Source: an uncultured Candidatus Saccharibacteria bacterium (GTDB lineage Bacteria; Patescibacteriota; Saccharimonadia; Saccharimonadales; Saccharimonadaceae). Taken from it: a stretch of DNA of 42,266 nt. Under the pieces are notes generated by a model. It was not told the DNA's origin, searched no databases, and saw only the letters and a program-made list of their open reading frames with translations. Every line of letters starts with the position of its first letter. Position 1 is the stretch's first letter. The stretch is from assembly GCA_946409745.1 (NCBI GenBank), contig CAMJXP010000004.1, forward strand, positions 1 to 42,266, given 5' to 3'. Shown here in pieces: positions 3,323-29,921 of this stretch. Made by a program: the position numbers and the translations under genes.

Positions 3323-3925
3323 TTATTTTATGATTTTTTCTGGATCGTAAATTTCTGAGATTTCCATTTCGAAGACATCGTCTAAGAAACGATCGCGAAC
3401 GCTGCGACGATAGGTGAAGTCTTCGAGCGACATAATAACATAGTTAATTGGTTTGCCCTGCTTCTTTTCAACGACTTCGGCCCAGCGGGTGAGCTTTTTG
3501 GTTTTGTCATTGCCAATAATAAGCAGGTCGACACCGTCCTGGCCCGGCAGGCGATTCGTGACAATAAGGCCTTTCAAATAGTTCTTTACTGGACGACAGT
3601 ACTCTTCCCACGTGGTAGCGTGTATATCTTTTTCGCGCGTTGTATCAATTTTTTTCGCGAAAATGTCGATGAGCGGGCGATAGAATGGGTGCTTGCTGTT
3701 AGCAGAATAATAAACTTTATTATCAAAAGTTTCATTTTTGATAATGCCGATACTTTCGAGGTTTAGGAGCTCGCGACGGACGGAATTAATCTGTTCTTCG
3801 ATGACACGAGTCATCTCGCGAACGTAAAATGATTTCTCTGGATTCTCGAAAAAGAGCTTTAAAAGTTTGGCACGAGTCTTCGAACCAAATAATTTTTCTA
3901 TTGGCGTGTTATTTTCTTTACTCAT
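3323..3925 (-). CDS. Winged-helix regulator with nucleotidyltransferase-like C-terminal part
   Basis: LFGSKTRAKLLKLFFENPEKSFYVREMTRVIEEQINSVRRELLNLESIGII wHTH; DLLIIGND in the second half. Confidence 0.6.
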   Translation of the reverse strand: MSKENNTPIEKLFGSKTRAKLLKLFFENPEKSFYVREMTRVIEEQINSVRRELLNLESIGIIKNETFDNKVYYSANSKHPFYRPLIDIFAKKIDTTREKDIHATTWEEYCRPVKNYLKGLIVTNRLPGQDGVDLLIIGNDKTKKLTRWAEVVEKKQGKPINYVIMSLEDFTYRRSVRDRFLDDVFEMEISEIYDPEKIIK

Positions 3926-24046: not shown

Positions 24047-26989
24047 TTAGGCGACTTTTTCGAGCGAGATGGTGACGTTTTCGCCAGCAATCTTTGCGAT
24101 TTCGTCGTGGGCGTAGTTCTCGTTCTTCTTGATGTCGTCGGCGAGGACCTCAGTACGGATGAGATCCACGAAGCCCTCTGGTGGATTGACTGAGATAGAG
24201 AGTTTGATGTGGTCATCGACCTGGAGGCCGGCGTTTTTACGGGCGGACTGGACGGCGCGGATGATGTCGCGGGCAAGCCCTTCCCTCTTTAGTTCGTCGG
24301 TCAAAGTCTTGTCGAGGAAGAATTCTTTACCACATTCAACCTTTTTGACGTTAACTTCGTCCATGATGATTTGTTCGTAGAAGTCGTCGAGCTTGTCGCC
24401 GGTGTAAGTGAGCGAGGCGAGTGGCTGGCGAACTTTGATTTGCTCCTCGGTGTCGGACTTTTGCATACGAAGGGCGAGAGCATCCGTGATGATGGCGCGG
24501 GTGCGAGCCATTTCATCGAGGATGGCGGTGTCAATGACGCCGGCTTCTGGCCAGTCTAAGAGGTGGACGGATTCTAATTTCCCGGTCATCTTTTGATAGA
24601 GCTCTTCGGTTAAGAACGGCACGAACGGAGCGAGAATCTTCGCGGTGTAGATAAGAACAAAGTGGAGTGTCGCGAAGGCCTGCATCTTGTCGGCGGTGTC
24701 GTCGTTCTTAGAGAAACGACGGCGAGAACGGCGGACATACCAGTTTGAAAGGTCGTCGATGAATGGTAAGACGTTCTCGAGGGCTTTTGGAATGTTGTAT
24801 TCGGTCATTCCCTCGGTGATTTCGTCGCGGAGTTGGTACATACGGGAGAGGATCCAGAGGTCGAGCGGATGCTTCGGGTCGAGCTTCAAATCGTCACTAT
24901 CGATGCCGTCGACGGCAGCGTAAGTCGTGAAGAAGTCATAAACGTTCCAGAGCATCGCGAGCTTGCGGTTGACGTCGGAGACGTCTTTATCGAGCAGAGC
25001 GAAGTCTTCGCCGGAGAGAACCGGGCTGGATAAAAGCAAGAACCTGAGCGAGTCGGCTGAGAATTGGTCCATGAGGACATTTGGATCGGTGAAATTACCG
25101 AGAGACTTACTCATCTTGCGACCATCGTTACCAGCAAGCGTACCAGTAGTAATGACGTTCTTGTAGGCGTTTTTCGCACCGTTTTTGGCTTTGTCACCAA
25201 AGGCGCCGATTTCGGCGAGCGCGGTGTTTACGGTGTGGACATAATAGAACCAAGCGCGAACCTGACCGACGTATTCAACAATGAAGTCGGCCGGGTAGTT
25301 GGCTTCGAACTTTTCCTTGTTTTCGAACGGGTAGTGCATCTGAGCAAACGGCATGGAGCCAGATTCAAACCAACAGTCGAGAACTTTTTCGATACGGGTG
25401 AAGTGCTCGCCGTCGATATCGAAGGTGATTTCGTCGACCCATGGGCGGTGATAATCATTTAAGGTCTTACCAGAGAGTTCTTCGAGCTCTTTGTAAGAGC
25501 CGATGACTTTAATGCTTCCCTTGTCACCCTTCCAGACCGGCATAGCGGTAGCCCAGAAGCGATCACGCGAGAGGTTCCAGTCTGGAGCTTGCTCGATGTT
25601 TTTAGCGAAACGGCCGTGCTTCAAATGAGCTGGGAACCAGTTGATGTTCTCGTTTTCTTCGAGCATCATGGTCTTTTGGCCTTCTACATCGAAGAACCAG
25701 GATGGGAAGGCGCGGTACATGATGCGCTCTTTCGAGCGTGGGTTAAATGGATATTCGTGTTGAATGTATTCGATTTTCCAGATGATTCCCTTGTCTTCGA
25801 GGCATTTCGCGATGAATTTGTTGCCGGCCCAGGCTTGGATGCCGTGTTCATCGGTGTCGCGAACGCCAAGTTTATGGAGTTCGGCGGCCATTTCTGGCAA
25901 ATAGTAGCCATTTTCATCGAGACAGTCGACGAAATCGACTTCGTGCCTACTAGCGAGAGCAAAGTCGTCTTCACCATAGGCAGGTGCACAGTGGACAATG
26001 CCGGTACCATCTTCGGCGGAAACGAAATCGCCTGGGAGGACGGTATAGGTATCTTTTCTTGCTACAGTTCCCTTGTCGCCACGGAGGCCTAAATCGAAGA
26101 GGCCGTCGGCGACTTTAATAATCGGTTCGTAGGCTTTGCCGACTAAGGCTTTACCCTTCATGGCTTTAAGTGGTTTCTGACCTTCAAAGAGGATTTTGCC
26201 GCGCTCGAGGGCAACGATCAGTTTGTCGCCATTTGCTTCATAAACACCATAATCTAAATCAGGATTAATGGCGAGATAGAGATTGCCCGGCAAGGTCCAA
26301 GGAGTCGTGGTCCAAGCGAGGAAATATTCATCACTATCTTTAACTTTGAATTTAACGTAGGCAGATGGATCAGTGACGGTTTGGTAGGCGTCGTTGTCCA
26401 TCGTGACTTCGGCTTTAGAAACCGGCGTAGCGAACTTTGTATCATACATTAATACTTTTCGCCCTTCATAGATCTTGCCGGCCTCGTAGAGCTGTTTAAA
26501 GGCCCACCAGACCGATTCCATGAAGTCCTTGTTCATCGTGCGGTAAGCATTGTCGAAATCCACCCAACGGCCAATGCGGTCGATGGTAGAGCGCCAAGTT
26601 TCAGAATTCGCGACCATGGATTCGCGAGCCTTGATAATATAGTCTTCAAGTGACCATTTGGTGCCGATATCACGACGATCGGTGATGCCAAGTTGCTTCT
26701 CAACGAAGTTTTCGGCTGGAAGACCGTGGCAGTCCCAACCCCACCTACGTTCAACGCGGTAGCCATTCATGGTCCAGAAACGTGGCACGGCATCTTTCAC
26801 GATGGAGCTAAGAAGCGTACCGTGGTGTGGGTTGCCAGTAATAAACGGAGGGCCGTCATAAAAGACGTAAGATTTGTCGACTGGCCGGCTTTCAACGGAT
26901 TTTTCGAAGGTTTTATTCTTCTTCCACCATTCGCAGACGGCTTTTTCGTAAACGGCGGCTTTCCGACGTTCACCTGCTTTATATTTCAT
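24047..26989 (-). CDS. ileS: Isoleucyl-tRNA synthetase
   Basis: DGPPFITGNPHHGTLLSSIVKD (HIGH-like), GWDCHGLPAENFVEKQLGI, GRKMSKSLGNF (KMSKS). Confidence 0.97.
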   Translation of the reverse strand: MKYKAGERRKAAVYEKAVCEWWKKNKTFEKSVESRPVDKSYVFYDGPPFITGNPHHGTLLSSIVKDAVPRFWTMNGYRVERRWGWDCHGLPAENFVEKQLGITDRRDIGTKWSLEDYIIKARESMVANSETWRSTIDRIGRWVDFDNAYRTMNKDFMESVWWAFKQLYEAGKIYEGRKVLMYDTKFATPVSKAEVTMDNDAYQTVTDPSAYVKFKVKDSDEYFLAWTTTPWTLPGNLYLAINPDLDYGVYEANGDKLIVALERGKILFEGQKPLKAMKGKALVGKAYEPIIKVADGLFDLGLRGDKGTVARKDTYTVLPGDFVSAEDGTGIVHCAPAYGEDDFALASRHEVDFVDCLDENGYYLPEMAAELHKLGVRDTDEHGIQAWAGNKFIAKCLEDKGIIWKIEYIQHEYPFNPRSKERIMYRAFPSWFFDVEGQKTMMLEENENINWFPAHLKHGRFAKNIEQAPDWNLSRDRFWATAMPVWKGDKGSIKVIGSYKELEELSGKTLNDYHRPWVDEITFDIDGEHFTRIEKVLDCWFESGSMPFAQMHYPFENKEKFEANYPADFIVEYVGQVRAWFYYVHTVNTALAEIGAFGDKAKNGAKNAYKNVITTGTLAGNDGRKMSKSLGNFTDPNVLMDQFSADSLRFLLLSSPVLSGEDFALLDKDVSDVNRKLAMLWNVYDFFTTYAAVDGIDSDDLKLDPKHPLDLWILSRMYQLRDEITEGMTEYNIPKALENVLPFIDDLSNWYVRRSRRRFSKNDDTADKMQAFATLHFVLIYTAKILAPFVPFLTEELYQKMTGKLESVHLLDWPEAGVIDTAILDEMARTRAIITDALALRMQKSDTEEQIKVRQPLASLTYTGDKLDDFYEQIIMDEVNVKKVECGKEFFLDKTLTDELKREGLARDIIRAVQSARKNAGLQVDDHIKLSISVNPPEGFVDLIRTEVLADDIKKNENYAHDEIAKIAGENVTISLEKVA

Positions 26990-27007
26990 ATTGACTCCTT
27001 ATTATTA

Positions 27008-27170
27008 AAAAATCCAATGCTTTCGCATTGGAACTCCTAAGAGCGGTACCATCCAATTTCCGATAATTCGGCACTTAATTAATCACTCACGCGGATTCAC
27101 GAACGGTTCTAATCGGTTTCCCTTTCTTCCGTCAGCTCGCAGTTGATAGCTGCTAATAACGCTTTAATAG
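27008..27170 (-). promoter_or_regulatory. T-box-like leader upstream of ileS, with intrinsic terminator
   Basis: T-box motif GGATGGTACCGC, Ile codon ATT in an internal loop (GATTAGAACCG, ATT at 27111-27113), terminator TCCAATGCGAAAGCATTGGATTTTTT. Confidence 0.85.
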
Positions 27171-27212
27171 ATTTAGTTTAGCATATTTTTAACAGAAAAG
27201 AAAATGCTTATA

Positions 27213-28013
27213 TTATTTTTGATGAACGTCGAGCTGGTTGTATGGAATCGAGATCTTGTGGGCTTCGAGAGTTTCGACGATAGTTTTAAGTGCGTCGCGG
27301 CGGGCTTGGCCTTTTTGTTCAGGGGTGGAGGCGAGTTTTATTTTGTAAATCAGAGCCGATTCGCCGAGCGTGGTAAGGCCAAGAATCTGAGTTGACGTAA
27401 TGGCTGGATCCTTCTCAACTTTAGTGACGATTTCTTTCAAAACGGCTTCGGCTTTTTTGACACTGAGCTCATACGGAAGTGGAATATCAATCAAGATGTC
27501 GCCAGAAATCACTTCGACGAGTTCGATGTTGCGGTTAGCGATGCTGACGATGTTACCAGAAAGGACGTCTTGGATTTTAGTGGTTTTTAGACCGACAGAA
27601 AGGACTTTGCCAGTTTGGCCGTTAAACTTAATAATGTCGCCAACGGCATAGTAATTGTCCGAGATGATATCAAAGCCTTTGATAATGTCTTTTAATGCGT
27701 CTTGGACGGCAAAACCAATCACGACACCAACAATGCCGACGCCGGCGAGCATCGAACTGATATCAATGCCGAAAATGCGCATAATGGCAAGAACGGAAGT
27801 GATAACAAGAGCGTAGCGGATGATGCTTTTAAGCATCTTGAGATAAGTACGGTTCTTTTTATTCGAAAAGACGCGGGAATTCTTTTTCTCACGACGAGAA
27901 ATCAGATGTGACACAATGCTATAAAACAAAGTGTTCACGATAATGACGATGAGCGACCAAAAAATTCGCTTGAACCAGACGTTTTCGAAAATATCTTGAG
28001 CAATGTTATCCAT
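27213..28013 (-). CDS. mscS: MscS-family small-conductance mechanosensitive channel
   Basis: VGVVIGFAVQDALKDIIKGFDIISDNYYAVGDIIKFNGQTGKV. Confidence 0.92.
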   Translation of the reverse strand: MDNIAQDIFENVWFKRIFWSLIVIIVNTLFYSIVSHLISRREKKNSRVFSNKKNRTYLKMLKSIIRYALVITSVLAIMRIFGIDISSMLAGVGIVGVVIGFAVQDALKDIIKGFDIISDNYYAVGDIIKFNGQTGKVLSVGLKTTKIQDVLSGNIVSIANRNIELVEVISGDILIDIPLPYELSVKKAEAVLKEIVTKVEKDPAITSTQILGLTTLGESALIYKIKLASTPEQKGQARRDALKTIVETLEAHKISIPYNQLDVHQK

Positions 28014-28019
28014 AGTTTT

Positions 28020-28274
28020 TTAGATTAGATAATAGAGGACCTCGTTTAAAAGTGGCAGGGTGCGACCACGCCAGGCATTACGAACAGCGCCGTTGTCGTC
28101 GATAGCGATGATTGAAGGATATTCAACGATATCGTAAGCTTCGCAAAAGCCTGGATCCTCATCCGGATTCATTTCTTCAATTTCGTAGCCGGTTTGACGG
28201 CGCATATTCTCAATCCATTCGGTGACGCTGCGAGTATAATCCTCGTTGTCACGGTATACACAAACCACCCGCAT
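28020..28274 (-). CDS. Thioredoxin-like fold small protein without CxxC
   Basis: 84 aa, ...YDIVEYPSIIAIDDNGAVRNAWRG thioredoxin-like cis-Pro region; no CxxC. Confidence 0.5.
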   Translation of the reverse strand: MRVVCVYRDNEDYTRSVTEWIENMRRQTGYEIEEMNPDEDPGFCEAYDIVEYPSIIAIDDNGAVRNAWRGRTLPLLNEVLYYLI

Positions 28275-28724
28275 TTATTTCTTCCCTTTTTGTTCCTTCA
28301 ATATGTTTTCAAAATCTTCGAGAGTTTTAAACTCACGGAAGACGCTGGCGAAACGGACGTAAGCGACTTCGTTGACATCGGCGAGGACATCGAGGACGGC
28401 TTCGCCAATTTGCTTTGAAGTGATTTGCTCGGTGCCATAGGAATAGAGGATGTCGGTAACACGGTTGATGACCTCTTCGATTTCGAGTTCGGAATTGAAG
28501 AATTTGCCAACACTACGCTTAACGGCAAGGAGAAGCTTATCACGATCAAAGATTTCTTTGTTGCCACTACGCTTTAAGACAGTAAGTGGTGGCATTTCAA
28601 TACGCTCGTAAGTAGTAAAACGCCGACCATCCGGCGTTTCACGGCGGCGACGAATCATGGTGCCATCTACCGTTTCTCGACTTTCAAGAACTTTGCTGTC
28701 TCCAATACGGAATTTGTGGTCCAT
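28275..28724 (-). CDS. nrdR: NrdR-family repressor lacking zinc-ribbon cysteines
   Basis: SKVLESRETVDGTMIRRRRETPDGRRFTTYERIE followed by ATP-cone LTVLKRSGNKEIFDRDKLLLAVKRSVGK. Confidence 0.9.
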   Translation of the reverse strand: MDHKFRIGDSKVLESRETVDGTMIRRRRETPDGRRFTTYERIEMPPLTVLKRSGNKEIFDRDKLLLAVKRSVGKFFNSELEIEEVINRVTDILYSYGTEQITSKQIGEAVLDVLADVNEVAYVRFASVFREFKTLEDFENILKEQKGKK

Positions 28725-28736
28725 GTTTCGCTCCTT

Positions 28737-29921
28737 TTATTTCTTATTCTTTTTACTCCTCAAGCGGTCACGCAAGGATGGTGGCACATCCATTTCGTCG
28801 TCAGTAGCAACCGGTTCCGGTTCTGGTTCATTCTTGATAGAATCCCACATGTTGGAACGTGGTTCGGCAGCAAATTCTTTGGTATCAGCAGCTGGAGTTT
28901 CTGGAGTGAAGGCTGGAGCTGCTTCTTTAACTTCTGGCTCTGGGGTAGTAGCCGCAGCGGCTTGAGCGTTGAAGTATTCGGAATCAAAGCCGGTGGCAAC
29001 TACGGTGACGACGATTTCGTCTTCGAGCTCTGGGCGGATGGAAGCACCAAAGATGATGTTCGCATCTGGAGAGACGGAGCCGGTGATAACTTCAGCAGCT
29101 TCTTGGACTTCAGACATTGACATGTCGTAGCCACCAGCCACTGAGAAGAGTACGCCACGAGCGCCTTCGATTTTGACTTCGATGAGTGGAGATTCAACGG
29201 CTTGTTGAGCAGCGATGACAGCACGGTTTTCGCCAGAAGCACGGCCAATACCCATGAGGGCAGAGCCGGCATTTTTCATGATGGATTTAACATCGGCAAA
29301 GTCGAGGTTGATAAGTGAGTGCTCGGTAATGAGCTCAGAAATACCTTGGACGCCTTGGCGAAGAACATCGTCGGCAATTTTGAAGGTTTCGAGAAGCGGA
29401 GTGCGAGGATCGATAGTCTGCAAGAGACGATCGTTTGGAATAGTGATAATTGCATCAACTTGGCGAGCAAGCTTATCGATAGCAATTTCAGCGTTAGCAC
29501 GGCGACGAGCACCTTCGAAAGTGAATGGTTTCGTAGCAACACCAACGGTGAGAATGTCTTTTTTACGTGACTCTTCGGCAACGATTGGGCCGGCACCAGA
29601 ACCAGTACCACCACCAGCACCGAGAGTAATGAAGACCATATCGGCACCTTCGAGAGCGTTATCGATAGCTTCGCGGGATTCTTCAGCAGCTTCACGACCT
29701 TTTTCTGGATCGCCACCAGCGCCTAAACCTTTACCAATGTGAACTTTGACATCGGCTGATGAATGATGAAGAGCCTGAGCATCAGTGTTAATTGCAACAA
29801 ATTCAACACCGGTAAGACCTACTTCTTTCATGCGTTCAACTGCGGAGCCACCGGCACCGCCGACGCCTACAACTTTAATACTTGCTTTACTTTCCACCTC
29901 TGTCGGTTTAATTTCTGGCAT
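28737..29921 (-). CDS. ftsZ: Cell division protein FtsZ
   Basis: [29 protein letters not shown] tubulin signature, C-terminal VPPSLRDRL. Confidence 0.97.

Follow-up and report, generated by a model that had tools for sequence, protein, structure and literature searches.

A probable transcriptional T-box riboswitch with an ultrashort Stem I before ileS in a Candidatus Saccharibacteria genome

The leader RNA that precedes ileS in the stretch of DNA analysed here (42,266 nucleotides, referred to as the window) is very probably a T-box riboswitch that combines a Class III aptamer with a classical transcription terminator and would control ileS. This assignment was made from sequence. It rests on the anatomy of the leader, on covariation, on complementarity to tRNA, on the correspondence between codon and gene and on distribution, and from these we infer tRNA binding, dependence on charging and termination. 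The aptamer belongs to Class III by its anatomy, and it departs from the published loop length and from the translational platform of that class.

The window lies within a 637-kb Candidatus Saccharibacteria assembly. The gene downstream of the leader (ORF 24047-26989, minus strand) is an equivalog match to TIGR00392 (750 bits, E=3.9e-225). The encoded IleRS is 97-98% identical to that of Candidatus Saccharibacteria, and its nearest relatives are from Saccharibacteria, many of ruminant-gut origin. Hence, the initial annotation was right to place the leader before ileS and to suspect a CPR genome. The leader occupies the approximately 180 nucleotides between ileS and an upstream mscS-like gene. 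The region upstream of ileS (27213-29921, minus strand) encodes an MscS-like channel, NrdR and FtsZ. Elsewhere in the window, a bacterial class A RNase P RNA is found at 832-1172 of the minus strand (221.5 bits).

All elements of the leader (27013-27167) are on the minus strand. A candidate extended -10 element, TGCTAAACT (27175-27183), was identified by consensus match only. Among 40 leaders, 35 have the pattern TGnTAnnnT directly ahead of Stem I, and so the transcript should start at the T-box. Stem I is ultrashort, with 30 nucleotides (27134-27163). It is comprised of a base helix AGC/GCU, a K-turn-like internal loop, a helix GCAG/CUGC and a 7-nt apical loop, CUAUCAA (27143-27149), that surrounds the isoleucine specifier AUC (27145-27147). 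In 39 related leaders the two helices are 98.3% and 100% paired and show compensatory changes. Stem II (27102-27133) contains an S-turn (AAGAA/UAGAA). Its lower helix is 100% paired in the same set, and the purines A43, A44, A58, G59 and A60 (leader numbering) are invariant in 39/39 leaders. The Stem IIA/B pseudoknot (27081-27101) is formed by a CGUG/CGCG hairpin (27090-27101, 99.4% paired) whose loop AAUC pairs with GAUU (27081-27084). The inner two pairs are kept in 36/37 and 36/39 leaders, and the outer two are weakly kept across the 39. Stem III (27060-27071) is 98.1% paired with compensatory changes in 4/4 pairs, and together with its flanking purine motif AAGUG ... AA (27058-27076) it fits the published 5'-RRRxG-Stem III-AA-3' (PMC7583486).

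The 3' half of the leader contains the antiterminator and the terminator. The 5' strand of helix A1, AUUGGA (27052-27057), pairs with UCCAAU (27027-27032); A1 is 100% paired in the 39 leaders and 4/6 of its pairs are compensatory. The T-box bulge UGGUACC (27045-27051) follows, and then helix A2, GCUC-UUAG-GAGU (27033-27044), closed by a G-U wobble that is kept in 37/39 leaders. This closing G-U is the known steric sensor pair (PMC7583486). The strand UCCAAU is shared: it is the 3' strand in A1, and it also forms the 5' arm in a predicted intrinsic terminator, UCCAAUGC-GAAA-GCAUUGGA (27013-27032, -11.5 kcal/mol), which was also found by an independent terminator scan. A U6 tract (27007-27012), kept in close relatives, follows the hairpin. 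The Shine-Dalgarno sequence AAGGAG (26995-27000) is located outside the hairpin, 5 nt before the ATG. The bulge, the antiterminator pairing and the terminator (27032-27007 with its U6) had all been proposed in the initial annotation, and they are present as claimed.

The Rfam T-box model RF00230 matches 27168-27026 with E=9.8e-8 and 40.6 bits. The search that had been suggested thus returns the expected family, with a score under the gathering threshold of 93 bits. None of the genomes of the family passes this threshold, and a search of eight divergent relatives with RF00230 gave no match. The model appears to score members with a long Stem I better. The 39 related leaders align cleanly, and our hand-drawn structure has 96.3% of its cells paired. 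The covariation that had been asked of related ileS leaders is present: 25/34 pairs are compensatory, with both sides changed, and the covariation score is 0.438, compared with 0.192 for shuffled alignments and at most 0.093 when pairing partners were slid. With partners slid by 1-3 columns, pairing falls below 38%. Both antiterminator helices, A1 and A2, covary in this set. A further 92 leaders from the phylum, mostly from outside the genus of the window and aligned by fitting to the structure, are 95.2% paired, with 30/30 pairs compensatory and a score of 0.738 against 0.226 shuffled.

In the window and its close relatives the expression platform has the classical layout, in which the hairpin before U6 takes its 5' arm from the 3' strand of A1. 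In predicted folds without tRNA, the terminator form is favoured by 11 kcal/mol (OFF -45.9 versus ON -34.8 kcal/mol). The T-box fold was not recovered in full when the entire leader was folded by energy, which is expected when a single sequence is folded without pseudoknots. The Shine-Dalgarno sequence is downstream of the U-tract, and most of its GGAG core remains unpaired in the OFF fold predicted here. With a terminator and U6 upstream and GGAG mostly free, Shine-Dalgarno sequestration was rejected for the window. It could still be argued that the leader regulates translation, as the actinobacterial ileS T-boxes do, and that the hairpin and U-tract are incidental. In favour of this, the Class III T-boxes that have been described to date work at the translational level (PMC7583486), and the hairpin is followed by a good Shine-Dalgarno sequence. 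We consider this distinctly improbable, because U6 stands directly after the hairpin, the Shine-Dalgarno sequence is downstream of it and mostly accessible, and U-tract hairpins recur in relatives despite quite different arrangements, so that termination looks selected. Most likely, the leader works as a transcriptional T-box, and the departure from actinobacterial ileS T-boxes that had been noticed at the outset is real.

The different arrangements are seen when terminators are compared among relatives. By a ranking of strand pairing, 40 leaders favour the classical terminator and 72 favour an enclosing form, in which the Stem III region pairs with a strand further downstream that ends at the U-tract, and the antiterminator is unchanged inside (L222, L213, L027). 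Cognate strands pair at a mean of -13.4 kcal/mol and non-cognate strands at -7.5 kcal/mol, and 12.5% of the non-cognate combinations are as good. A more structural classification gave 52 enclosing leaders. Both classifications are automatic and somewhat noisy, their counts are approximate, a few leaders switch class between runs, and a few that were counted as enclosing (for example L030 and L234) look like users of the A2 strand instead. Enclosing terminators with the outer helix on the Stem III strand were observed in L197-L233, L009, L013, L015, L021, L023 and L027, while the window has classical A1 competition instead. In these relatives the tRNA would block the terminator by fixing Stem III, together with its purines, on the antiterminator, an arrangement known from the discriminator structure (PMC7583486).

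The specifier was tested independently of the 39 leaders, which were chosen by a pattern requiring AUC and so cannot prove that codon. A covariance model trained on AUC leaders was run over genomes, and leaders were collected together with their downstream genes. Among the 92 leaders obtained, Stem I contains AUC in 61/62 that precede ileS, and the sole exception (L267) has no recognisable loop in its match. Before other synthetase genes the codon changes with the gene: GUC in 14/14 leaders before valS, GAC in 5 and AAC in 4 of the nine before aspS, ACU in the two thrS leaders whose Stem I is complete (a third matched only in its 3' half), UAC before tyrS (n=1) and AAG before lysS (n=1). For 2 of the 92 the first gene was not identified. 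The AUC-trained model has thus recovered loops in which the codon varies with the downstream gene. The loop itself varies in size: it has 7 nt in the window and in the majority of ileS leaders, and as many as 14 nt in many valS leaders. The Val-type T-boxes L188, L194, L237, L241, L242, L250, L252 and L269 have a common 14-nt apical loop around UAAUGUCA, compared with the 7-nt Ile loop. The asparagine codon AAC precedes aspS in L244, L256, L262 and L273. Some of these aspS are non-discriminating (aspartate--tRNA(Asn) ligase), and expression may therefore be tuned to tRNA-Asn.

A different specifier had been proposed in the initial annotation, which took the stem ACGG/CCGT for Stem I and read an AUU in its internal loop as the isoleucine codon. 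AUU does encode isoleucine, and the stem is real and conserved. It was rejected as the specifier stem, because both its position and its invariant purines identify it as Stem II with the S-turn. The proposed codon is not maintained in homologues, an outcome that had been named at the outset as refuting (AGT in 20/39 leaders, ATT in 16/39, other sequences in 3/39), whereas the Stem II core AAGAA/UAGA is invariant in all 39. Moreover, the stem with its AGA motif is also found before valS, aspS, tyrS and lysS, where it is the loop upstream that changes codon. AUC forms Watson-Crick pairs with a GAU anticodon, and AUU would need wobble. Overall, the AUU reading is extremely improbable. The broader claim of a T-box with a very short Stem I holds, with the true Stem I located upstream of the stem that was named and AUC in its apical loop as the specifier.

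The tRNA-Ile of the genome has the anticodon GAU, the discriminator A73 and an encoded CCA, as had been anticipated, and it is fully complementary to the AUC and the UGGU of the leader, its ACCA end matching the bulge. The bulge, too, changes with the gene for the most part: it is UGGU in 98/102 ileS leaders, UGGC in 6/9 aspS leaders and UGGA before thrS. Four ileS leaders (L200, L202, L225 and L227) contain UGGC, UGGG or UGGA. The fourth base of UGGN was compared with the tRNA-Ile discriminator as a check for covariation in trans: both UGGA genomes in which tRNA-Ile was found keep A73, a mismatch, and a looser pattern applied to the UGGC and UGGG genomes recovered nothing recognisable as tRNA-Ile. 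For the window, we propose that the AUC loop would pair with the GAU anticodon of tRNA-Ile during transcription and that the five-purine string of Stem II would hold this pairing from the side. The ACCA end of an uncharged tRNA would pair with UGGU of the T-box bulge, the Stem III purines would then lock the antiterminator, and polymerase would continue into ileS. With charged tRNA, or with none bound, UCCAAU would go into the terminator and transcription would end.

Among known systems, the Class III T-boxes of Nocardia farcinica and Mycobacterium tuberculosis ileS are the closest in anatomy. They share with the window a short Stem I that lacks the elbow-binding double T-loop domain, an AUC in the apical loop at equal distance from the Stem I base and followed by a purine, a Stem II S-turn with a five-purine string, the IIA/B pseudoknot, the Stem III purine motif and the T-box bulge (PMC7583486, PMC10482949). 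The invariant Stem II purines of the window family match the string of five purines in the T-box of N. farcinica ileS (PMC7583486). The comparison with actinobacterial leaders was made through published numbering: with G6 of the leader taken as position 1, AUC falls at 16-18, like A16-U17-C18 of N. farcinica (PMC7583486), and the next purine at 19, the first loop base at 14 and two S-turn adenines at 38-39 have the numbers that they have in the solved structure from N. farcinica ileS (PMC7583486, PMC10651847). There are also differences. The window leader ends in a transcription terminator and the published members in a Shine-Dalgarno sequestrator, its apical loop has 7 nt rather than the published 5-6 nt (PMC10482949), its Stem II is shorter, and its type is found in Patescibacteria, with relatives serving Val, Asp, Asn, Thr, Tyr and Lys. 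The Class I transcriptional T-boxes (RF00230, leaders of Bacillota aminoacyl-tRNA synthetase genes) share the discriminator domain, the UGGN bulge and a terminator that uses the 3' strand of A1, whereas the window leader has neither their long Stem I nor their elbow-binding domain. The Class IV T-box of Actinomyces odontolyticus ileS is likewise an ileS leader without the elbow-binding domain and differs in that the specifier is apical in the window. Relative to the Class III T-boxes described in the open-access literature, the terminator, the specificities other than Ile, the spread in CPR bacteria and the enclosing terminator of relatives are new. No paper linking T-boxes with Saccharibacteria or CPR was found in that literature.

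We lean towards the view that Patescibacteria hold a large lineage of transcriptional T-boxes, as yet unannotated, whose Class III aptamers serve at least seven amino acids. In many of these, switching would work in a new way: an enclosing terminator would compete with Stem III or with the purines beside it, and the helix exchanged between the ON and OFF states would be Stem III rather than A1. Transcriptional T-boxes are said generally to require a long Stem I and an elbow-binding domain (PMC7583486). The kinetic argument is that a long, elbow-gripping Stem I is needed to catch the tRNA before polymerase reaches the terminator, and it becomes directly testable with the roughly 100 natural leaders found here, which join a minimal aptamer to a terminator. 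Additionally, such leaders would let host-dependent bacteria that lack amino-acid biosynthesis sense amino-acid supply through a regulator that is missed at the standard Rfam cut-off.

The covariance model finds the RNA in 262/393 genomes of the class (117/152 genera) and in 120/380 genomes of the phylum (89/313 genera). At 80 related ileS loci, a simple pattern applied to the 110 nt before the start counted 60 without a T-box, and a slightly longer look found 24 with one. The simplest reading is that the switch was lost in some close relatives. L071 carries a relic immediately before its ileS, which starts at 3501: what remains is a broken Stem I that lacks AUC and a 5' portion of Stem II, running directly into the Shine-Dalgarno sequence. 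Sister species without the element, and this relic with its specifier lost, could suggest that in the window too the T-box part is a decayed remnant and the terminator attenuates constitutively, a hardly credible reading given that all T-box elements are intact in the window and that its two nearest relatives, L031 and L032, retain every element too. The loci without a T-box fall in L034-L110. In 53/60 of the T-box-less loci, a -10-like hexamer is located 2-8 nt before the ATG, which suggests leaderless messages.
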